Below are positions 42,999 to 53,156 of a stretch of 64,000 bases of DNA, one piece after another. The stretch's first letter is position 1. Every line of letters begins with the position of its first letter. Origin of the DNA: Flavobacteriales bacterium. Its GTDB lineage: Bacteria > Bacteroidota > Bacteroidia > Flavobacteriales_D > Crocinitomicaceae. The notes under the pieces were generated by a model, which saw only the letters and a program-made list of their open reading frames with translations, ran no database searches and was not told the origin of the DNA. The stretch is from contig CANITF010000014.1 in NCBI GenBank assembly GCA_947470515.1, positions 1-64,000 on the forward strand, read 5' to 3'. The position numbers and the translations under genes are program-made.

Positions 42999-45314
42999 AT
43001 GGCTAAAAATCTCGTAATCGTTGAGTCCCCTGCAAAGGCAAAAACAATAGAAGGATATCTTGGAAAAGATTTCGTTGTAAAATCTAGCTTCGGGCACGTT
43101 CGAGACTTAGCAAAAAAAGGAATAGCAATTGATATTGAGCATGATTTCCAACCTAATTATGAAGTTTCAGCAGATAAAAAAGCAATTGTCGCTGAACTGA
43201 AAAAATTAGCGAAGGAAGCAGAGACTGTGTGGTTAGCGACTGATGAGGACCGCGAAGGAGAAGCTATTTCATGGCATTTATATGAAACGTTGAATCTTGA
43301 AAAAAAGGATACAAAACGTATTACCTTTAACGAAATAACTAAATCGGCAATTCTTAAAGCAATTGATAATCCGCGGAAAATTAATAAAGAATTAGTTGAT
43401 GCGCAGCAAGCTAGAAGAGTGCTTGATAGAATTGTTGGGTTTGAATTATCTCCTGTTCTTTGGAAAAAAGTTCGACCAAGTTTATCAGCTGGAAGAGTGC
43501 AATCTGTTGCTGTTCGTTTAATTGTAGACAGAGAAAAAGACATAAACAAACATAATTCAGAAAGTTTTTTTCGTGTAAATGCAAATTTCAGTGCAACAAA
43601 AGGTAAAATTAAAGCTGAATTATCAAAACAATTAACTTCTGAAAAACAAGCGATTGATTTATTAAACGCATGCAAAGGAGCCGATTTTGTAATCGATGAT
43701 GTTCAACAAAAACCAGCGACAAAATCTCCAACAGCACCTTTTACAACTTCAACTTTACAACAAGAGGCAAGTTTGAAATTGGGATTCTCTGTTTCTAGAA
43801 CTATGTCTGTTGCACAGCGTTTGTATGAAGCAGGTAAAATAACGTACATGAGAACGGACTCTGTGAATTTTTCAGAAACAGCTCTAACAAGTGCCAAAGA
43901 AGAAATTGAAAGAGCGTATGGAAAAGAATATTCTAATCCAACGAAATATAAAACAAAGAGCAGCAATGCACAAGAGGCTCACGAGGCTATTCGTCCAACT
44001 GAGTTTTTTACCCATTCGATAGAAGGTGATCGCGATGATGAGCGTCTATATGATTTAATTTGGAAGCGCTCAATCGCCTCTCAAATGTCAAATGCAAAGC
44101 TGGAAAGAACGACAATAAAAATTGTAAGTAATTCTATTTCTGAACATTTTCAAGCAAAAGGAGAAGTTATCAAATTTGATGGTTTCTTGAAAGTATATCT
44201 TGAATCAGATGTCGATCAGGATGATGATGAAGACGATGAAGATGGATTACTTCCTGATGTGAAAGCTGGTGAAAAGGTTAATAGCGATGAAATTACAGCT
44301 ACAGAGCGTTTTTCAAGACCACCGTCGCGTTATGCAGAAGCTTCTTTAGTGAAGAAAATGGAAGAATTAGGCATTGGTCGACCTTCAACGTATGCTCCAA
44401 CAATTTCTACGATTCAAAAACGTGGCTATGTTGAGAAAAATGAGAGAGAAGGGAATGAACGTAAATACCTTGTTAAGAAATTAGTAAAAAACGAATTGAT
44501 TGAAGAAGTTCGAACTGAAACAACCGGTAAAGAAAAGAATAAACTTTCTCCAACCGATATTGGGATCGTTGTGACTGATTTTTTGAGTGAACATTTTGAA
44601 AGAATTATGGATTATAACTTTACTGCGAAAGTAGAGGAGGAGTTTGACGAAATTGCAAAAGGATTGATTCAGTGGACTGAAATGCTGCATAAGTTCTACG
44701 ATCTATTCCATAAAAATGTTGAAGATACATTAGAACATTCAGAAAGAGCTACTGGTGAAAGAGAATTAGGGATTCACCCAGTGAGTGGTAAAAAAATAAT
44801 TGCACGAATTGGACGTTTTGGACCGATGATTCAAGTGGGTGACGAGCTAGTAGATGGTGAAAAACCACAATTTGCTTCACTTCAAAAAGATCAATCTATT
44901 GGAAGTATTACACTTGAAGAAGCATTAGAATTATTTAAAATGCCCCGAACTTTAGGTGAATTTGAGGAACTTGTGGTGAAGGCAAATGTAGGCCGATTTG
45001 GTCCATACATTCAACATGGAAAAATATTTGCTTCTATTCCAAAGGAGGAAAGCCCGATGAATATAACGTTTGAGCGCGCTGTTGAAATCATTCTCGAAAA
45101 GAGAGAATCTGACGCAAATAAGTTGATTAAAAGCTTTACAGAGGAGGAAGATATGCAATTATTGAACGGACGTTGGGGTCCATATTTGAAGATTGGAAAA
45201 AACAATTTCAAATTACCTAAAGGTGCAGAGGCTGAAAAACTTACATACGACGAATGTATCACAATTTCAAAAAATCAGCCGAAGGGCAAAAAGAAGCCTG
45301 TTAAGAAAAAATAA
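42999..45314 (+). CDS. topA: DNA topoisomerase I (type IA)
   Basis: This 771-residue topoisomerase relaxes negative supercoils. The TOPRIM domain has VESPAKAKTIEGYLG at the start and DEDREGEAISWH. The catalytic tyrosine is in KITYMRTDSVNFSE, and RPSTYAPTISTIQKRGYVE is the conserved domain IV region. An acidic loop (DVDQDDDEDDEDGL) interrupts the core near residue 410. Instead of four-cysteine zinc fingers, the C-terminus has several repeats of the GRFGPMIQVG type (GRFGPYIQHG, GRWGPYLKIG) and a lysine-rich tail (KGKKKPVKKK). It has its own promoter. Confidence 0.96.
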   Translation: MAKNLVIVESPAKAKTIEGYLGKDFVVKSSFGHVRDLAKKGIAIDIEHDFQPNYEVSADKKAIVAELKKLAKEAETVWLATDEDREGEAISWHLYETLNLEKKDTKRITFNEITKSAILKAIDNPRKINKELVDAQQARRVLDRIVGFELSPVLWKKVRPSLSAGRVQSVAVRLIVDREKDINKHNSESFFRVNANFSATKGKIKAELSKQLTSEKQAIDLLNACKGADFVIDDVQQKPATKSPTAPFTTSTLQQEASLKLGFSVSRTMSVAQRLYEAGKITYMRTDSVNFSETALTSAKEEIERAYGKEYSNPTKYKTKSSNAQEAHEAIRPTEFFTHSIEGDRDDERLYDLIWKRSIASQMSNAKLERTTIKIVSNSISEHFQAKGEVIKFDGFLKVYLESDVDQDDDEDDEDGLLPDVKAGEKVNSDEITATERFSRPPSRYAEASLVKKMEELGIGRPSTYAPTISTIQKRGYVEKNEREGNERKYLVKKLVKNELIEEVRTETTGKEKNKLSPTDIGIVVTDFLSEHFERIMDYNFTAKVEEEFDEIAKGLIQWTEMLHKFYDLFHKNVEDTLEHSERATGERELGIHPVSGKKIIARIGRFGPMIQVGDELVDGEKPQFASLQKDQSIGSITLEEALELFKMPRTLGEFEELVVKANVGRFGPYIQHGKIFASIPKEESPMNITFERAVEIILEKRESDANKLIKSFTEEEDMQLLNGRWGPYLKIGKNNFKLPKGAEAEKLTYDECITISKNQPKGKKKPVKKK

Positions 45315-45455
45315 ATTTCATAATTGATTTTATTTTTTCAAGTGTATTCAGAGGAATCTTCAAAAAAACCTTTTGAACAAATCAATATGTAATACTTTCA
45401 GACCTCTGTTTGATTACAAAAACAATATTGATTTAAATTTGAAGAAAAATTCTGA

Positions 45456-46613
45456 ATGAAGGATCTATCTATTTATTTCACACAAGCACATTTTCAAAAC
45501 GATTGCACAGATCAAAAAATTGGACAATCAATCATTAGTTATACCAATGATTCATTTCCTGAAATTGAAAAAGGGGGTGTAGCTATCTTTTATGTTCCTG
45601 AATTCAGAGGCGAATCATCCAATCAATTTGAAAATAAAGCTGAATTTTTCAGATCTTTTTTCTATGATTTAAATCGAGGGATTAACTGGAAAATGCCAAT
45701 TTATGATTTAGGAGATGTTTTACCAGGGCAAGATATTAGAGACACTTATTTCGCAGTCAGTCAAATCATTGCCGAATTGGTTAAAAATAAAGTGATTCCT
45801 TTGATTATTGGTGGAAGTCAAGATTTAACCATTGCGATGTATAAAGGGTATGAGCAATTAGAACAAATGGTAAATTTATGTTGTGTTGATCACCAATTAG
45901 ATTTAGGAAATCCAGAAAGTGAACCAACATCGGATGGTTTTTTAAGTCATCTTTTATTACAAAGACCTTGTTATTTGTTCAATCATGCTAATATTGGTTT
46001 ACAGGCACCTTTTGCTTCTAAATCAGAATTGGATTTATTTGAGAAATTGTATTTTGATTCGTGTCGACTGGGTGAATTCAATACTGATTTCAGAAAAGCA
46101 GAACCGCATCTGAGAAACTCAGATATATTAAGTGTTGACTTTAAAAGCATTCGCGCTTCAGAATTGAGACAAAGTGCATATTTATCTCCAAATGGATTTT
46201 ATGCTGACCAAATCTGTCAAATAGCCAAATACGCGGGTCTGAGCGATAAATTGACTTCTTTTGGCTTGTTTAATTATTATCCAGAAATAAATCAAAGTAG
46301 TGCATCCTCATTAGTAGCTCAAATTTTATGGTATTTTATTGATGGTGTTTCACAACGTAAAGGAGATTTTCCAGTAGGAAGCAAAAAAGATTATATGAAG
46401 TTTACTGTCCATTTGGATGATTTCAAGGATGAGGTTATTTTTTATAAAAGTGATAAATCCGACAGGTGGTGGATGGAAGTTCCATACCCAGCTCAAAAAG
46501 GATCTGCATACGATAGACACCACATTGTGCCGTGTGATAAAACTGATTACGATAGAGCCATGAAGAATGAAATGCCTGATTTGTGGTGGAAAACATATCA
46601 GAAATTATGCTAA
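45456..46613 (+). CDS. Arginase-fold (ureohydrolase superfamily) protein with lost metal ligands
   Basis: This 385-residue protein has the arginase/formiminoglutamase fold but probably is not a standard manganese hydrolase. The GGxH motif reads IIGGSQDLT (His to Gln). The DAHxD motif reads VDHQLD (His to Gln). The SxDxD motif reads SVDFKS (second Asp to Lys). The C-terminal third (about residues 295-385, from KKDYMKFTVHLDDF to NEMPDLWWKTYQKLC) is an addition. I recall relatives next to topA and gld genes in other Flavobacteriia, annotated as formimidoylglutamase. It lies directly before the PorP-like gene, 160 bases apart. A structural or regulatory role in the T9SS region is possible but unproven. 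Confidence 0.75.
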   Translation: MKDLSIYFTQAHFQNDCTDQKIGQSIISYTNDSFPEIEKGGVAIFYVPEFRGESSNQFENKAEFFRSFFYDLNRGINWKMPIYDLGDVLPGQDIRDTYFAVSQIIAELVKNKVIPLIIGGSQDLTIAMYKGYEQLEQMVNLCCVDHQLDLGNPESEPTSDGFLSHLLLQRPCYLFNHANIGLQAPFASKSELDLFEKLYFDSCRLGEFNTDFRKAEPHLRNSDILSVDFKSIRASELRQSAYLSPNGFYADQICQIAKYAGLSDKLTSFGLFNYYPEINQSSASSLVAQILWYFIDGVSQRKGDFPVGSKKDYMKFTVHLDDFKDEVIFYKSDKSDRWWMEVPYPAQKGSAYDRHHIVPCDKTDYDRAMKNEMPDLWWKTYQKLC

Positions 46614-46788
46614 TGTTATCAGTATGTTTAGATAATAACAAACGGTGTGATTATCGTAAAAAAAATATTTTCTTTGAGCCATATTAGAAAAATGTTTCAT
46701 TTGTAAAGAAAAATAATTATTTTAGTCGCCTAAATGGATATTTTCTAATTATTATATCCACTATAAACCCTAAGTGAAAAAGAATTTT

Positions 46789-47730
46789 ATGAAGAAAAAA
46801 TTAGTTCTCTTATCGTCATTATTTGTTGTCGTAGCAAGCAATTTGTTGGCTCAACAAGATAAATTAATAACACATTTTATTTATGATAAAATGAGTATTA
46901 ATCCCGGAGAAACAGGTTTGGACAAAGGAATATGTGCTACAACTATTTATAGAAATCAATGGGATAAGGTTAACGGAGCTCCTAATTCAGCGATTCTTAA
47001 TATTGAAGCTAATTTGAAACCTTATTTTAAAGCTGGTGGAATTGGTATTTCATTTTTTCATGATGCAATTGGCTTCTCTCGTCAAAATAATGTTCTATTA
47101 AATTATTCTTACCCATTACAACTTGGCAATGCTGGAACTTTAGGAATTGGCGTAGGTGTTGGAATTGTGAATTTTGGGATGTCTCCTGTATGGGTTCCAC
47201 CAACAACTGCAATTGATCCTACATTACCTGTTGGGTTTTCTGCTACAAACCTTGATATGAATTTTGGATTGTATTGGAAAGGTAACCAAGATTATTACGT
47301 AGGGTTGTCTTCAACTCATTTGAATGAGTCATTGTTAAAACAAACTGTTGGTGTAGTTTCTCAAACGTATCAGACAGCTAGACACTATTATATAATGGGA
47401 GGTAAGAAATTCAATAACATTGGTACTGATGGAGCTTTAGATGCTCAGGTTTTGATGAGAACTGATATGGTTAAATTTTCTTCTGACATTAATGTTAGAT
47501 ATATTTGGAAAAACATTGCTTATGGTGGTTTGACATATAGAACAGTTGATGCTGTTGGAGTTATGTTAGGTTGGATGCCAATTAATGGCATGACGATAGG
47601 TTATTCTTATGATGTTACAACTAATAAATTAGCAAGTGTTTCGAGAGGTTCTCATGAAATACTTTTTAAGTATTGTATGTACTTGCCACCAATCCCGATG
47701 ACGAAATCAAATCATCCAAGATGGTTGTAA
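46789..47730 (+). CDS. PorP/SprF family T9SS outer-membrane protein
   Basis: This 313-residue beta-barrel protein belongs to the PorP/SprF family, which works with the type IX secretion system in anchoring or exporting surface proteins. The signal peptide is KKKLVLLSSLFVVVASNLLAQQ. The mature start DKLITHFIYDKMSINPGETG is the family's YxxNP-type opening (YDKMSINPG), followed by alternating beta strands with GIGISFFHDAIGFSR. I choose the ATG at 46789, because the GTG at 46774 would add five residues before the signal. It lies 118 bases before gldK, in the arrangement common in this phylum. PorP versus SprF cannot be resolved. Confidence 0.88.
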   Translation: MKKKLVLLSSLFVVVASNLLAQQDKLITHFIYDKMSINPGETGLDKGICATTIYRNQWDKVNGAPNSAILNIEANLKPYFKAGGIGISFFHDAIGFSRQNNVLLNYSYPLQLGNAGTLGIGVGVGIVNFGMSPVWVPPTTAIDPTLPVGFSATNLDMNFGLYWKGNQDYYVGLSSTHLNESLLKQTVGVVSQTYQTARHYYIMGGKKFNNIGTDGALDAQVLMRTDMVKFSSDINVRYIWKNIAYGGLTYRTVDAVGVMLGWMPINGMTIGYSYDVTTNKLASVSRGSHEILFKYCMYLPPIPMTKSNHPRWL

Positions 47731-47848
47731 TTTTAAAAATTAATTTGAATATTTGTAACCATATTTAGGTAAGTTCCGTTATATCAAAAATTGTAGATCC
47801 TGTAGATTGTTAAATTCAATATCCGGAAGTAGATAAAAAAAAGGTAGA

Positions 47849-49393
47849 ATGAAAAAACTTTTGTTAATTGGTTTTGTAGGTTTAGTCTTAGCATCTTGTA
47901 GTACAAGAACTGGACATCTTACTGGAGCGTTGGGGAGACCAGTGTTCCACCCAGAAATCCCGTTGGGGATGGTGTATATTCCTGCTGGTTCATACCAAAT
48001 GGGTGAAAATGACATGGACGTTCCGTTCTTGCACCAAACACGTGCAAAGACCGTTTCTGTTCAAGCATTTTATATGGACCAAACAGAAATCTCAAACAAT
48101 GAGTACCGTCAATTCGTAGAATGGGTGCGTGATTCAATTGCTCGTGATAAACTGTATTATGGTTTGGAAGACGATGAGGAAGCTCAACGTTATATCAACT
48201 ACGAAGAAAGATATTTCGATGAAGGTGCTTTGGAATATGCTGATTATGATCCTTCTGACCGTGAATTAAGCAGATCAATTTTCAGTTTGAATTGGGATCG
48301 TCGTTTAGATTATTCTGATCCTGAAGTTGTGCCAATTCTTGCTGATATGTATTATCCTCAACCTGAAAGATATTACAAAAGAAGAGAAATTGACGTTCGT
48401 AAATTAATGTTCCGTTACTATTGGATCGATTACAGAGAGGCCGCAAAAAGAGGTCGTATCAATATCACTCCAAATGGTTATGATAAAGAAGGAAATAAAT
48501 TAGTTGATGAGCACCGTGAATTGCAAACTCCTCCACATCCATTTACTGAAGAACCTCAAGGTCAAGATAAAGACATGGGTTATTTCAATAAGAAAGGTCA
48601 GAATAATGCTATTCGTGGACATGAAAATCGTCAACGTTTTATAATCGATGAAATTATCAATGTTTATCCAGATACATTATGTTGGGTGAGAGATTTCACA
48701 TACTCTTTCCATGATCCAATGACAAATATGTATTTCTGGCATCCAGCTTATGACAATTATCCAATTGTTGGTGTAACGTGGGTTCAAGCAAAAGCTTTCT
48801 CTGTTTGGAGAACGCAATTATTGAATACATGGCTAGTAGCAATGGGTGATATGTTCGTGAACGATTTCCGTTTGCCAACTGAAGCTGAATGGGAAAGAGC
48901 TTCTCGTGGTGATTTGAATTTATCACAATATCCTTGGGGTGGACCTTATATTAGAAATGAAGCTGGTTGTTTCTTAGGAAACTTCAAGCCAATGAGAGGT
49001 AGATATTTTGAAGATGGAGGTTTCCATACGGTGAAAATTTTCTCTTACAACCCGAACGGATGGGGATTATATTGTATGGCTGGAAACGTTTCTGAGTGGT
49101 GTGAAACTGCTTACGACGAATCAATGTATGATTTCTCTCACGATTTAAATACAGATTACCGTTATGATGCAATGGACTGGGATCCACCTTCAATGAAACG
49201 TAAAGTTTTACGTGGTGGTTCATGGAAAGATGTAGGATATTATTTGATGAATGCTACTCGTACATTCGAGTATCAAGATACTGCCAAGTCATACGTGGGT
49301 TACCGCGATGTTATGACGCACCTGGGAAGAGGTGGAAGAGACTTCACTAGAGAAGGTGGCGAAGAAGTTCGAAGTGATATTCAATTAAAGTAA
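47849..49393 (+). CDS. gldK: Gliding motility / T9SS lipoprotein GldK (PorK)
   Basis: This 514-residue outer-membrane lipoprotein forms, with GldN, the periplasmic ring of the type IX secretion system. The lipobox is LVLASC (Cys at residue 16). The formylglycine-generating-enzyme-like domain begins at HPEIPLGMVYIPAGSYQMGEND and includes NNEYRQFVEWVRDS, RLPTEAEWERASRGDL and MAGNVSEWCETAYDE. GldK uses this fold structurally, not as an enzyme. Length and sequence fit GldK rather than GldJ. gldL, gldM and gldN follow with gaps of 74, 71 and 18 bases. Confidence 0.95.
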   Translation: MKKLLLIGFVGLVLASCSTRTGHLTGALGRPVFHPEIPLGMVYIPAGSYQMGENDMDVPFLHQTRAKTVSVQAFYMDQTEISNNEYRQFVEWVRDSIARDKLYYGLEDDEEAQRYINYEERYFDEGALEYADYDPSDRELSRSIFSLNWDRRLDYSDPEVVPILADMYYPQPERYYKRREIDVRKLMFRYYWIDYREAAKRGRINITPNGYDKEGNKLVDEHRELQTPPHPFTEEPQGQDKDMGYFNKKGQNNAIRGHENRQRFIIDEIINVYPDTLCWVRDFTYSFHDPMTNMYFWHPAYDNYPIVGVTWVQAKAFSVWRTQLLNTWLVAMGDMFVNDFRLPTEAEWERASRGDLNLSQYPWGGPYIRNEAGCFLGNFKPMRGRYFEDGGFHTVKIFSYNPNGWGLYCMAGNVSEWCETAYDESMYDFSHDLNTDYRYDAMDWDPPSMKRKVLRGGSWKDVGYYLMNATRTFEYQDTAKSYVGYRDVMTHLGRGGRDFTREGGEEVRSDIQLK

Positions 49394-49467
49394 TTGAATT
49401 AAACTAGAATACAACAAACAAACAAAAAAAGTAGTAATTTTTAAAAACCTAAAAAACAAGTAAAACT

Positions 49468-50280
49468 ATGAAACCAGGAAGTAAAGGATGGAAAAAATTT
49501 ATGGCGAAATTATACGGTTGGGGTGCAGCCGTAGTAATCGTTGGAGCGTTATTTAAAATTGAACACTTACCAGGGGCATCAATTATGCTTTCAGTCGGTT
49601 TAGGAGTAGAAGCGTTTATCTTCTTTATGTCGGCATTTGAGCCAATTCATGAAGATCCAAATTGGGAGTTAGTATACCCAGAATTAGCATTAGGTCATTC
49701 AGATGAGTTAGACCATAACCAATTACCAGCTGGTGGAAGAGGCGGGAAAGGTAACGGAATTACTGATCAGTTAGACAAAATGTTAGAAGAAGCAAAAATC
49801 GACAGCGCTCTACTTGAACGTTTGGGTGATGGTATGAAAGCGTTAGGCGATAATGCTAATCAATTGAAAGGTATTTCAACGGCAACTGCTGCAACTGATT
49901 CTTATGTTTCTAGCTTACAAGCAGCATCTGATAAAGTGTCTACTTTGTCTGAAGCATATGAGCGTGCATCTGTATCTATCTCAGGAATGACATCTTCTGC
50001 TAAAGAAGGCGAATCTTTTGGAGAGCAAATGCAAAAAGTTTCTAAAAACTTATCAGCGCTTAATAACGTATATGAACTGCAATTAAAAGGTTCATCTGCG
50101 CATTTAGAAGCTACAGAGAAATTCCAATCACAAGTTGTTGATATGATGTCAAATCTTGCTGCTTCTGTTGAAGATACAAGATTGTATAAAGAGAATATGT
50201 CTATGTTGTCTAAAAACTTGACTGATTTGAACAACGTGTATGGAAATATGTTAAAAGCTATGACAATAACGAGAGGTTAA
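49468..50280 (+). CDS. gldL: Gliding motility / T9SS motor protein GldL (PorL)
   Basis: This 270-residue inner-membrane protein is the stator-like part of the proton-driven GldLM motor. Two helices lie at the N-terminus (LYGWGAAVVIVGALFKIEHLPG and ASIMLSVGLGVEAFIFFMSAF). Glu48 in GLGVEAF probably corresponds to the conserved transmembrane glutamate (E49 in Flavobacterium johnsoniae GldL) needed for proton-powered rotation. The remainder is a long helical cytoplasmic domain rich in coiled-coil heptads (LQAASDKVSTLSEAYERAS). It is immediately before gldM. Confidence 0.95.
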   Translation: MKPGSKGWKKFMAKLYGWGAAVVIVGALFKIEHLPGASIMLSVGLGVEAFIFFMSAFEPIHEDPNWELVYPELALGHSDELDHNQLPAGGRGGKGNGITDQLDKMLEEAKIDSALLERLGDGMKALGDNANQLKGISTATAATDSYVSSLQAASDKVSTLSEAYERASVSISGMTSSAKEGESFGEQMQKVSKNLSALNNVYELQLKGSSAHLEATEKFQSQVVDMMSNLAASVEDTRLYKENMSMLSKNLTDLNNVYGNMLKAMTITRG

Positions 50281-50351
50281 TTTTTAATTAACCTGTTACT
50301 TTAATGTTATTGAACATTAATTTATTGATAACCAATAAAATTTAATTAATC

Positions 50352-52106
50352 ATGGCTGGAGGAAAAGAAACCCCAAGACAGAAGATGATCGGTATGATGT
50401 ACTTAGTACTGACCGCACTTCTGGCACTTAACGTATCAAAACAAATTCTTGACGCATTCGTTGCGATTGAGGAAAACACACAGAAATCGAATATTGTTCA
50501 CCACGACAGAGGGACTGGTGCAATGGCAGATTTGTCATCTGAATTAGCTGGAACAAGAGGAGCCGATCAAGCTGAAAAGCGAAGAAAAATCGCGTTCTAT
50601 TTGAAGCAAATGAAGGACATTGATAAAATGACAGCTGGTGTTGTCAAATTTATTGATGAAATAAAAGTTGATATAATGAAAGAATCAGGAGAGGATGTTT
50701 CTCAAGGTACAATGAATGATAAATTAAAAATCATTTGGGGTAAGTTTGATGCATCAAAACCTTGTCTTCCAATTCGTATGAACTTAGATGCTATTAATTC
50801 AAAAGACCAATACGATATTCCAATGCATCATTTAATTGGCTCCGATATCGTTGCTATTAAAGGTGAAGGAGTTGAATTATGGGATATGATTAATAAGTAT
50901 AGAAATGACTTAGTTAAAAAAGTAGGTACTTATAGCCCTCCTGGAGGAAAGGTGTTTAGCATTACTCCAAAGGGAATTAACACGTTTAAAGACAATAACG
51001 ATTTGACAGCACAAGTTACCAAAATGGTAAAAGGGTCGAAATGTAATTGGAATGACGACGGTGAAAAGTTAATTGAACTTTACATGTCTTTGACAAAAGC
51101 AGAAAGAGTAACTTCTGGAGATATTGAAGGAGTGCATTGGATGGGTAAGACCTTCGACCACGCTCCTTTAGTTGCTGCCTTAGCTTCTTTATCATCTTTA
51201 CAACAAGATGTATTAGCTGCTAGAGCCGTCGCAATGATGCATATCAAAGGTAAAGTTACCACTGGTGAATACAGCTTTAATAAAGTAATGGCATTAGCCT
51301 ATGCGCCTGCAGTTGCTAATAATGGAGATGATATAGAAGTTAAAGTCATGATGGCTGCTTTCGATTCTGATAACCAACCAGTTGTTACATACAATGGTGC
51401 GAATGTACCTGATGTAAAAGATGGGTTTGGTATCGTGAAAACAAAAGCAAATGGTAATGGTGAAATGATTCTGAAGGGAACTGTTGCTATAAAAAAGAAA
51501 AGTGGCGATACTAAAAGAGAGAATTGGGAAACGAAGGTTCTTATAATGAAGCCTCAAGGAACAGTATCTTTACCTGAATTGAATGTTTTGTATATTGGTT
51601 ATGACAACAAAGTTGATGCGGTTGCATCAGGTTATGACCAAACCGCATTGTCTTCAAGTGGTAATTTGAGATTGACTAAAAATGCTAAAGGTTGGATAGG
51701 TAAACCGTCAGGCGGTAAAACATGTACAATTAGTGTAAGTGGAAAAAGTTCTATCACGAACAAATCTGTGAACCTTGGTACATTTACGTTCCGTGTTAGC
51801 CGTCTTCCAGATCCTGAGTTGTATTGGGGAGGAACGAAAAGTGGTGAAAAAGCAAACAAAAGTGAAACAAAATTATTTGCTAAATATCCACCAGAAATTC
51901 CTTTAAATGCACAGTTTAGAATTGTAAGTTGGGAATGTGCAGTACCTGGAGCATTAGGGAAAGCACCAACAGGAACAGGTGGTGATATCAGTGCAGCTGG
52001 TAATTTAATTAGAGCTGCAAAGCCTGGTATGAATGTCAGTTTTATGTGTAATGTTGTAGGACCGGATGGTGTACAACGTAAAAAAGGTGGTGTTTTTAAA
52101 TTGTAA
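50352..52106 (+). CDS. gldM: Gliding motility / T9SS motor protein GldM (PorM)
   Basis: This 584-residue protein has one N-terminal inner-membrane helix and a long periplasmic rod, and it transmits motion from the motor to the GldKN ring. The start AGGKETPRQKMIGMMYLVLTALLALNVSKQILDAF is the family signature. Arg9 is in the place of the conserved residue that pairs with the GldL glutamate. The rest forms helical and Ig-like domains (for example VVTYNGANVPDVKDGFG). It is longer than the roughly 510 residues of F. johnsoniae GldM. It sits between gldL and gldN. Confidence 0.95.
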   Translation: MAGGKETPRQKMIGMMYLVLTALLALNVSKQILDAFVAIEENTQKSNIVHHDRGTGAMADLSSELAGTRGADQAEKRRKIAFYLKQMKDIDKMTAGVVKFIDEIKVDIMKESGEDVSQGTMNDKLKIIWGKFDASKPCLPIRMNLDAINSKDQYDIPMHHLIGSDIVAIKGEGVELWDMINKYRNDLVKKVGTYSPPGGKVFSITPKGINTFKDNNDLTAQVTKMVKGSKCNWNDDGEKLIELYMSLTKAERVTSGDIEGVHWMGKTFDHAPLVAALASLSSLQQDVLAARAVAMMHIKGKVTTGEYSFNKVMALAYAPAVANNGDDIEVKVMMAAFDSDNQPVVTYNGANVPDVKDGFGIVKTKANGNGEMILKGTVAIKKKSGDTKRENWETKVLIMKPQGTVSLPELNVLYIGYDNKVDAVASGYDQTALSSSGNLRLTKNAKGWIGKPSGGKTCTISVSGKSSITNKSVNLGTFTFRVSRLPDPELYWGGTKSGEKANKSETKLFAKYPPEIPLNAQFRIVSWECAVPGALGKAPTGTGGDISAAGNLIRAAKPGMNVSFMCNVVGPDGVQRKKGGVFKL

Positions 52107-52124
52107 GAATTTAAATAAAGGATT

Positions 52125-53156
52125 ATGAAAAGTCTAATTATTAGTGCCGGATTGGTGTTCTTTTCGTTGAACGTTATGGCTCAGTTGGAAGAAATCAACG
52201 GTGGCCCAGTGAACGTGCCGGCAGAAGGAATTGTAGATGGGGTTTATATCCAAGAGCATATCCCAACAAAACGCATGATTCCTTATGAATATGTGCGTGA
52301 AGCGGATGTAATTTGGAGCAGACGTGTATGGGAATATATAGATTTGCGTGAGAAAATTAACCTTCCGCTATATTATCCTTTAGATGAAATCACTTCGAGT
52401 GGAGAATGGGTTAGAAACGGATCTAGATGGAGTTTATGGACGGTACTGCGTTACCATGTCATGAATGGAAATCTCAGATTATTTTCACCTTATAATCCAT
52501 TATCATTTGGTTTTGGACTTGGAGGAAAAGATGGTGATCAGTTAAAATATCCAATTGATCCAAGTCAACCAGGTTTGAATTTTTATACTGATTCTCTTTA
52601 CAGAGAAGAGCTTTCTATTTATTTAGGGACTTTAGGAGCACAAAGCGATATTCCACTTACTGATGAAAATGGAGATCAAATTGTAATCACATTGCCTGAT
52701 GGAACTCAGTCTTTTACTTACTCTCCTAGAGATACTATTTGGTATACATCTCAAGATATTGTTCAATATCGTATTAAAGAAGATTGGTTCTTTGATAAAG
52801 AAAGGTCAGTTTTAGATGTTAGAATTATTGCTATTGCTCCGGTTGTTTATACTAGTGAGGAAGATCCAAATGGTAAAAAGACAATTTCTGGAATGCGTGA
52901 GTTATTTTGGTTGTATTTCCCACACTGTAGATTTGTATTGAATAACTACTTTGTTTACAATGATGCAAATGATGCGCAATGGATGAGTTTCGATGATTTA
53001 TTCTGGAAAAGAAGATTCAGTAGTATGATGTATAAAGAAAGTAATACATACGATCGTAACATTGAATCCTTTAGAACAGGAACAGATGCTCTGAGAGAAT
53101 CGGATAAAATTAAAGAAGAGATTAGAACTATTGAACACGATGTTTGGAGTTTCTAA
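52125..53156 (+). CDS. gldN: Gliding motility / T9SS periplasmic protein GldN (PorN)
   Basis: This 343-residue periplasmic protein forms the outer ring with GldK. The signal peptide is KSLIISAGLVFFSLNVMAQ. The mature part has IPYEYVREADVIWSRRVWEYIDLREKIN, the family hallmark, and the closing VRIIAIAPVVYTSE and MRELFWLYFPHCRFVL segments. It starts 18 bases after gldM and ends the locus, followed at once by a strong terminator. With the neighbours it completes the core T9SS/gliding gene set here. sprA, sprE, sprT and porV are not in this window. Confidence 0.95.
   Translation: MKSLIISAGLVFFSLNVMAQLEEINGGPVNVPAEGIVDGVYIQEHIPTKRMIPYEYVREADVIWSRRVWEYIDLREKINLPLYYPLDEITSSGEWVRNGSRWSLWTVLRYHVMNGNLRLFSPYNPLSFGFGLGGKDGDQLKYPIDPSQPGLNFYTDSLYREELSIYLGTLGAQSDIPLTDENGDQIVITLPDGTQSFTYSPRDTIWYTSQDIVQYRIKEDWFFDKERSVLDVRIIAIAPVVYTSEEDPNGKKTISGMRELFWLYFPHCRFVLNNYFVYNDANDAQWMSFDDLFWKRRFSSMMYKESNTYDRNIESFRTGTDALRESDKIKEEIRTIEHDVWSF

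Follow-up and report, generated by a model that had tools for sequence, protein, structure and literature searches.

The binuclear site of arginase is, in the rat numbering that we take to apply to the positions discussed here, formed by six ligands (HDHDDD). Metal A is presumably held by H101, D124, D128 and D232, and metal B by H126, D124, D232 and D234. An arginase-like protein from Trypanosoma brucei that lacks the binuclear manganese cluster was reportedly described by Hai et al. in 2015. A cluster-less arginase-like protein of T. brucei is cited in two articles (PMC11271267, PMC10820115). The former describes MetCb, a metal-free pseudoenzyme of the arginase family that is a subunit of metformin hydrolase and pairs with a catalytic partner from the same gene cluster (PMC11271267).

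We analysed a 64,000-nucleotide stretch of contig CANITF010000014.1 (the window) from a Flavobacteriales bacterium of the class Bacteroidia. An earlier note on this DNA had singled out an arginase-fold protein without three of its expected metal ligands and had suggested a maintained pseudoenzyme with a new role, possibly in T9SS assembly or regulation. Judged by alignments and a tree, the original observation holds and extends further: the protein is one of a class-wide family of predicted pseudo-ureohydrolases that occupies a single branch.

The arginase fold and its metal ligands

The gene lies on the forward strand (45456..46613), opens with ATG and encodes a protein of 385 amino acids. 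The product scored 33.4 bits against the Pfam Arginase family PF00491 (cut-off 22), which is enough to place it in the superfamily by fold, and AlphaFold2 returned a model with a mean pLDDT of 91.3 and a pTM of 0.92. The structure closest to this model is formiminoglutamase from T. cruzi (2a0m; Z 33.0, 2.3 Å rmsd over 278 residues), the match covering model residues 17-302. Together, the PF00491 score, the model and the match to 2a0m make membership of the arginase α/β fold well supported for the predicted structure. The HutG equivalog TIGR01227 gave 42.6 bits against a cut-off of 229.15, and the protein falls outside that family.

The metal motifs had been read as GGSQ, DHQLD and SVDFKS, with three of the six ligands replaced. 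This reading is correct, and the motifs stand in the contexts IIGGSQDLT, VDHQLDLG and ILSVDFKS. In the arginase register, H101 is replaced by Q122 (codon 45819..45821), D124, H126 and D128 correspond to D145-x-Q147-x-D149 (45888..45902), and D232 and D234 to D228-x-K230 (46137..46145), all on the forward strand. The window protein thus has QDQDDK where the binuclear site has HDHDDD, which is short of the ligand set of the arginase/ureohydrolase enzymes.

The same positions were read in the proteins from loci L001-L280, which gave 195 distinct class members (fragments counted) and, for comparison, 18 ordinary arginase-fold proteins, 16 of them from outside the class and two of them second copies within it (L279, L280). 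The split was set beforehand; the sample is skewed to the window's own order because loci were taken by similarity rank. All six ligands were found in none of the 195 class homologues versus 14 of the 18 ordinary relatives. The earlier note had proposed an alignment of homologues to see whether the substitutions are fixed: the loss is, but the exact replacements at H126 and D234 vary. A homologue with the full ligand set in the same synteny, named there as evidence against a pseudoenzyme, was not found among the 195 class members.

Position by position, 190 distinct class members can be read at H101, of which 163 have Gln, 11 His and 4 Asn, and Asp is kept at D124 (179/190), D128 (172/189) and D232 (186/193). 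His at H126 (6/190) and Asp at D234 (7/193) are rare and their replacements diverse; both residues are present in all 18 ordinary relatives. Those relatives that are short of six ligands have Asn at H101 and the other five intact (L271, L272 and L275) or Asn at the D128 position (L261). When the 188 members that could be scored at all six positions are considered, the site A set (Q/H/N101 with D124, D128 and D232) is retained in 166, the two ligands that belong to site B only, H126 and D234, are never found together, and one of them is found in 11. On this alignment the loss of ligands follows a pattern and is not spread evenly, with site B abolished and site A largely retained. As the loss is common to the whole family, it is no effect of chance or sequencing.

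The title of entry 4myn (N114H variant) implies that the T. cruzi formiminoglutamase (FIGase) itself has Asn at one ligand, and we infer that this ligand is the H101 position. The H101 position alone is therefore a soft criterion. The Asn at H101 in L271, L272 and L275 resembles this presumed Asn-for-His ligand of the T. cruzi enzyme.

At the position that we take to be Glu277 of arginase, Glu is present in all 18 ordinary relatives, and the 193 class members have Asn in 113 cases and Glu in 59. Many other polar residues are conserved (R51, D96, D123, Q183, R204, E216, R220 and K331, each in 89-99% of class members). These residues, and the retention of the site A set, are consistent with a re-purposed enzyme that would use a mononuclear site A (Gln and three Asp) for a different reaction and would have its pocket closed by the C-terminal domain. 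We regard this as unlikely. Nine divergent members retain no more than one of the three site A acids, so the metal pocket cannot be the function common to the family; divergent members without these acids nevertheless retain the rest of the protein. Nor did we find a conserved substrate or pathway context.

The C-terminal domain and the family that carries it

The extension that the earlier note had put at 90 residues is present, but it is somewhat shorter, comprising residues 303-385, about 83 amino acids (46362..46610, forward strand). Its most conserved residues are R337 (97%), W338 (99%), W339 (98%), C360 (99%), P374 (98%) and W377 (97%), the percentages referring to the 188-192 class members with a residue at the position concerned. 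In the 18 ordinary relatives, matches to the family profile stop at position 308 or before, and the extra-class matches listed end at or before position 326 of 389, most of them near 300-309. By this comparison the C-terminal domain, with its RWW and PC motifs, is a mark of the pseudo-arginase family.

Averaged over positions, the most frequent residue accounts for a share of 0.62 in the extension, compared with 0.56 for the barrel and 0.42 for the first 40 residues. The lead of the extension over the barrel is lost among the nine most divergent members (0.45 versus 0.48), although F329, C360, D364 and P374 are still present in them. RWW and the Cys persist in L246, L248, L253 and L259 despite a metal site that is unrecognisable. 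The tail motif is eroded in L247 (HWW), L252 (RMW with GC), L254 (LWY) and L260 (LWF, without the Cys).

Searches with the extension gave a best match of E 0.07 among PDB sequences, scattered matches in Pfam that were all sub-threshold, and no match at E 0.001 in BFVD; absent relatives do not make a fold new. In a VIA fold comparison, a relation to class IV adenylyl cyclases was set aside, the best Z of 4.5 being too low to use, as were WGR, dsRBD and integrase arm domains, which at Z 2-3.5 are too weak. A scan of 28 genomes found the extension nowhere outside the pseudo-arginase itself, apart from one match at E 0.04 in G391, in a 36-amino-acid frame with an internal stop.

In a tree built on the barrel of 45 class members and the 18 ordinary relatives, the whole family lies to one side of a branch that has 100/100 support and a length of 1.2. 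The tree has several long-branched rows and was rooted at its midpoint. The 16 extra-class matches examined are ordinary arginase-fold proteins. Comparison of the window gene with three close relatives gave dN/dS values of 0.028-0.038, and the same near relatives gave 0.020-0.025 for topA and 0.035-0.085 for porP. Synonymous sites are saturated in the comparisons with L079 and L080, which yield no dN/dS for the pseudo-arginase gene. These ratios indicate that the family is under strong purifying selection. The gene is present in 55 of the 60 nearest relatives, in 173 of 177 genomes of the order and in 279 of 296 class genomes. With six ligands in none of the 195 homologues, these dN/dS values and this distribution, the description as a maintained pseudoenzyme is borne out.

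Since 17 of the 296 class genomes do without the pseudo-arginase, it is dispensable in some lineages. Failure of detection was rejected as the cause of these negatives, because a profile search of the negative genomes gave nothing convincing: there was no match in 16 of the 17, the sole match in G043 (4e-7) covered model positions 25-186, and G144, G159 and G191 from the order sample gave none. The C-terminal domain alone was likewise absent from the 17 class-negative genomes and from G144, G159 and G191, with the exception of the E 0.04 match in G391.

Gene order, transcription and the T9SS

As the earlier note had said, the gene is located between topA (42999..45314) and porP-gldK-L-M-N (46774..53156), all on the forward strand. 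The porP gene, which encodes a T9SS membrane protein, has a GTG start as called (46774..47730) and is followed by the T9SS core genes gldK, gldL, gldM and gldN (47849..53156). GldK was identified by a match to TIGR03525, and gldL, gldM and gldN were named from gene order and the earlier note. The conserved neighbour topA is directly upstream in 35 of the 60 class-sample loci whose flank is long enough and, among close relatives (a set of 66 loci from titled contigs), in 21 of 56; for porP as the following gene, the counts are 28 of 58 in the class sample and 54 of 55 in the close relatives. Fifty-eight of the 62 class-sample loci have at least 3.5 kb downstream; porP or gldK lies there in 31 and neither was detected in 27. 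Where both flanks are available, topA on one side is combined with porP or gldK on the other in 29 of 57 class-sample loci.

Ten of the 62 class-sample loci have a divergent HpnA-like NAD-dependent epimerase gene near the pseudo-arginase gene. The epimerase gene is directly upstream in L156, L169, L170, L246, L247, L248, L252, L253 and L258 and 3 kb off in L243, and the same arrangement is seen in L286-L296. It constitutes a second conserved arrangement, in many loci without the topA/porP context. In genus g95, an RmuC-type gene is found in the flank of the pseudo-arginase gene in all 11 loci L286-L296, and in L169 an RmuC-type gene (Pfam match) is the next gene after it. A role on DNA, hinted at by the neighbours topA, RmuC, MgsA and UvrB, was dropped: the window protein has a pI of 5.1, and single neighbours may be coincidence.

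Bacteroidota promoters are of a type with -33 and -7 boxes. A match to this type, TTG-N21-TAAATTTG, is found at 45410..45441 on the forward strand, with its -7 box at 45434..45441, and ends 14 nt before the start codon. The -7 box was searched as TAnnTTTG, with mono-nucleotide shuffles as controls. Of 113 distinct regions upstream of the pseudo-arginase gene, 78 contain it in the last 80 nt (shuffles average 8.1 and reach at most 15), and it usually begins 11-30 nt before the start codon. From -80 to +60 of porP it is present in 10 of 98 (shuffle mean 14.8) and is not enriched. Close relatives account for most of the occurrences before the pseudo-arginase gene, with 66 of 77 at 55% identity or more, compared with 10 of 34 at 30-55%. 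A wider count showed the same contrast, with 92 of 175 for the pseudo-arginase gene (shuffle 18.8) and 27 of 123 for porP (shuffle 18.4). Because the -7 box stands before the pseudo-arginase gene and is not enriched before porP, we place the putative transcript start at the former; in many lineages the gene probably heads a transcript that continues into porP-gldKLMN. Few regions before either gene have the complete -33/-7 pattern (13/175 upstream of the pseudo-arginase gene and 6/123 upstream of porP, shuffle mean 1.85 each), so porP may have a promoter of its own. No terminator-like site was found in 45250-47900, where 1.2 were expected, and this result carries little weight.

The order of the genes, with porP next in nearly all close relatives, and the one-sided distribution of the -7 box would suit a dedicated factor in T9SS assembly or regulation, acting from the cytoplasm on GldK-N or PorP. 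Some divergent loci point in the same direction. Five f68 loci were read, and in three of them (L260, L277 and L278) the divergent homologue adjoins murF and a GldJ-like gene; in L277 the homologue is followed downstream by a PorP-family gene and then PorU (the L277 genes are annotated, as is murF in L260; the remainder were called by similarity). In L255, L256 and L257 the gene after the divergent homologue encodes a large protein that carries a T9SS type B sorting domain, recognized by a family match in L255 and L256 and, in L257, through 78% identity to L256. However, two other f50 loci, L205 and L206, did not show the type B neighbour of L256 in their short flanks, and the loci with the epimerase gene show a different setting instead.

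For the distribution, presence of the T9SS was scored via the SprA translocon, a proxy for T9SS loss. Among 296 class genomes, SprA and the protein occur together in 276 and are both absent from 4, as expected of a T9SS factor, but 13 have SprA only and 3 the protein only. SprA without the pseudo-arginase is found in G290, G340, G360, G379, G391, G424, G446, G461, G470 and G476 and in the drafts G043, G216 and G253. G340, G379 and G391 have no PF00491 match whatsoever. The three with the protein and no SprA are G234, G251 and G402; G251 is a draft whose contig stops about 470 nt past the gene.

In genus g95, to which G402 belongs, SprA is present in 12 of the 41 genomes searched and the pseudo-arginase in all 41, with profile coverage to the C-terminus, so that the protein is kept in 29 genomes without SprA. 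For seven of these, dN/dS was 0.009-0.021 over 11 pairs, all with dS below 1.5, and selection is therefore at least as strong without the T9SS translocon. All 13 g95 loci read have both RWW and PC unchanged. The status of GldK and GldL covers two of the 29 SprA-less genomes. G402 has no SprA, no GldK over the cut-off and no GldL, and has kept the pseudo-arginase; G234 has no SprA, yet GldK and GldL are present, on opposite strands and about 3 kb apart. Loss of the T9SS translocon is patchy within this one genus.

In genus g95 and in the class counts, presence of the pseudo-arginase does not track the T9SS as scored by SprA, and an exclusive T9SS-dedicated role is rejected by the co-occurrence data from both. 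The suggestion of a new role in the T9SS is thus met halfway: gene position and probable transcription fit it, but the distribution does not support a dedicated role, and we consider a dedicated T9SS factor improbable.

A non-hydrolytic reading and its nearest precedents

We consider it likely that the protein is a non-hydrolase with a general role, independent of the T9SS. The fuller reading, which we favour on balance, is that a former ureohydrolase now serves as a non-hydrolytic scaffold or core protein that is T9SS-independent and, in many lineages, probably co-transcribed with T9SS genes. A formiminoglutamase-like ureohydrolase would have become such a core protein, probably once and early in the class. 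In the data presented here, the ligands belonging to site B only have been lost and are free to vary, the site A acids and the Gln have been kept in most members, the new C-terminal domain has become fixed in the family, and purifying selection is strong even where SprA is absent. The barrel may have become a pocket with a structural or sensing function that binds no more than one metal ion, or a small ligand. The C-terminal domain may be the working contact, and its persistence in several divergent lineages that have lost the metal site would then be explained. The gene probably heads the porP-gldKLMN transcript in many lineages, and this shared transcript would tie its expression to the T9SS core, the protein itself being no part of the T9SS. 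A single-pocket-plus-tail mechanism is a tentative proposal; its odds are lowered by the eroded tail motifs of a few divergent members, and the nine members with no more than one site A acid speak against a metal pocket as the common function. It is doubtful that the protein represents a class-wide innovation in signalling or enzymology, in which a site A-only barrel joined to an orphan RWW/PC domain would sense metabolites or metals in a general capacity or carry out new chemistry, with its expression wired to the T9SS core operon in many lineages.

The protein might also be a metal-free partner that regulates an active enzyme of the arginase family, in the way that MetCb relates to MetCa in metformin hydrolase; we regard this as very unlikely. 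PMC11271267 provides the precedent, and the window model matches metformin hydrolase chains in fold. In the 28 genomes scanned, a second PF00491 match is found in 23 of the 24 that have the pseudo-arginase, and the window's own genome has one at G000:C19:46661-47551; these second matches are counted by family match. However, G402 has the pseudo-arginase and no other PF00491 match, hence no arginase-family partner in the same genome, which argues against obligatory pairing, and the two PF00491 genes of the window genome lie on different contigs. A functionless, decaying relic, which the loss of three of six ligands and the absence of the gene from 17 of 296 class genomes might suggest, is next to impossible, since the selection data (dN/dS 0.01-0.04) already refute it and the gene is kept in 279 class genomes, with the C-terminal motif conserved and, in close relatives, the position of the -7 box as well.

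This near-universal and strongly selected protein of a major bacterial class resembles an amidino-hydrolase yet can hardly be one. The exact loss of the site B ligands leads to a sharp, testable prediction on metal content, and the SprA-poor genus g95 offers a clean way to part a core function from a T9SS function. The protein adjoins a heavily studied secretion operon and is unmentioned in the open-licence PMC texts that the searches reached. None of the texts joins arginase, gliding, type IX secretion and gldK, none joins formimidoylglutamase with gliding motility or the Flavobacterium secretion system, and none deals with the presumed locus tags Fjoh_1850 to 1852. Among the papers listed by wider searches, neither arginase nor formimidoylglutamase terms occur in the entries. 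The word 'arginase' was not found in PMC12635249 or PMC9143113.

The closest known relatives in structure are the HutG enzymes of T. cruzi (2a0m, 4mxr) and B. subtilis (3m1r), which have the arginase fold in common with the pseudo-arginase over residues 17-303 (Z 30.9-33.0); 3m1r is also its best sequence-profile match in the PDB. Unlike HutG, the pseudo-arginase scores below the TIGR01227 cut-off, lacks three of the six ligands and has an extra C-terminal domain. Metformin hydrolase (8snf, 8ryi) matches in fold with Z 28-29, a comparison that does not distinguish the MetCa from the MetCb chain. In contrast to MetCb, the pseudo-arginase has no adjacent arginase-family gene in the neighbourhoods read, its distribution is class-wide, and it carries a new C-terminal domain. 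The T. brucei protein is likewise a natural arginase fold without the metal cluster; it is eukaryotic, and the likeness is one of description. With the T9SS core operon porP-gldKLMN, the pseudo-arginase gene has its neighbourhood and probably its transcript in common, but it is retained where SprA is absent.
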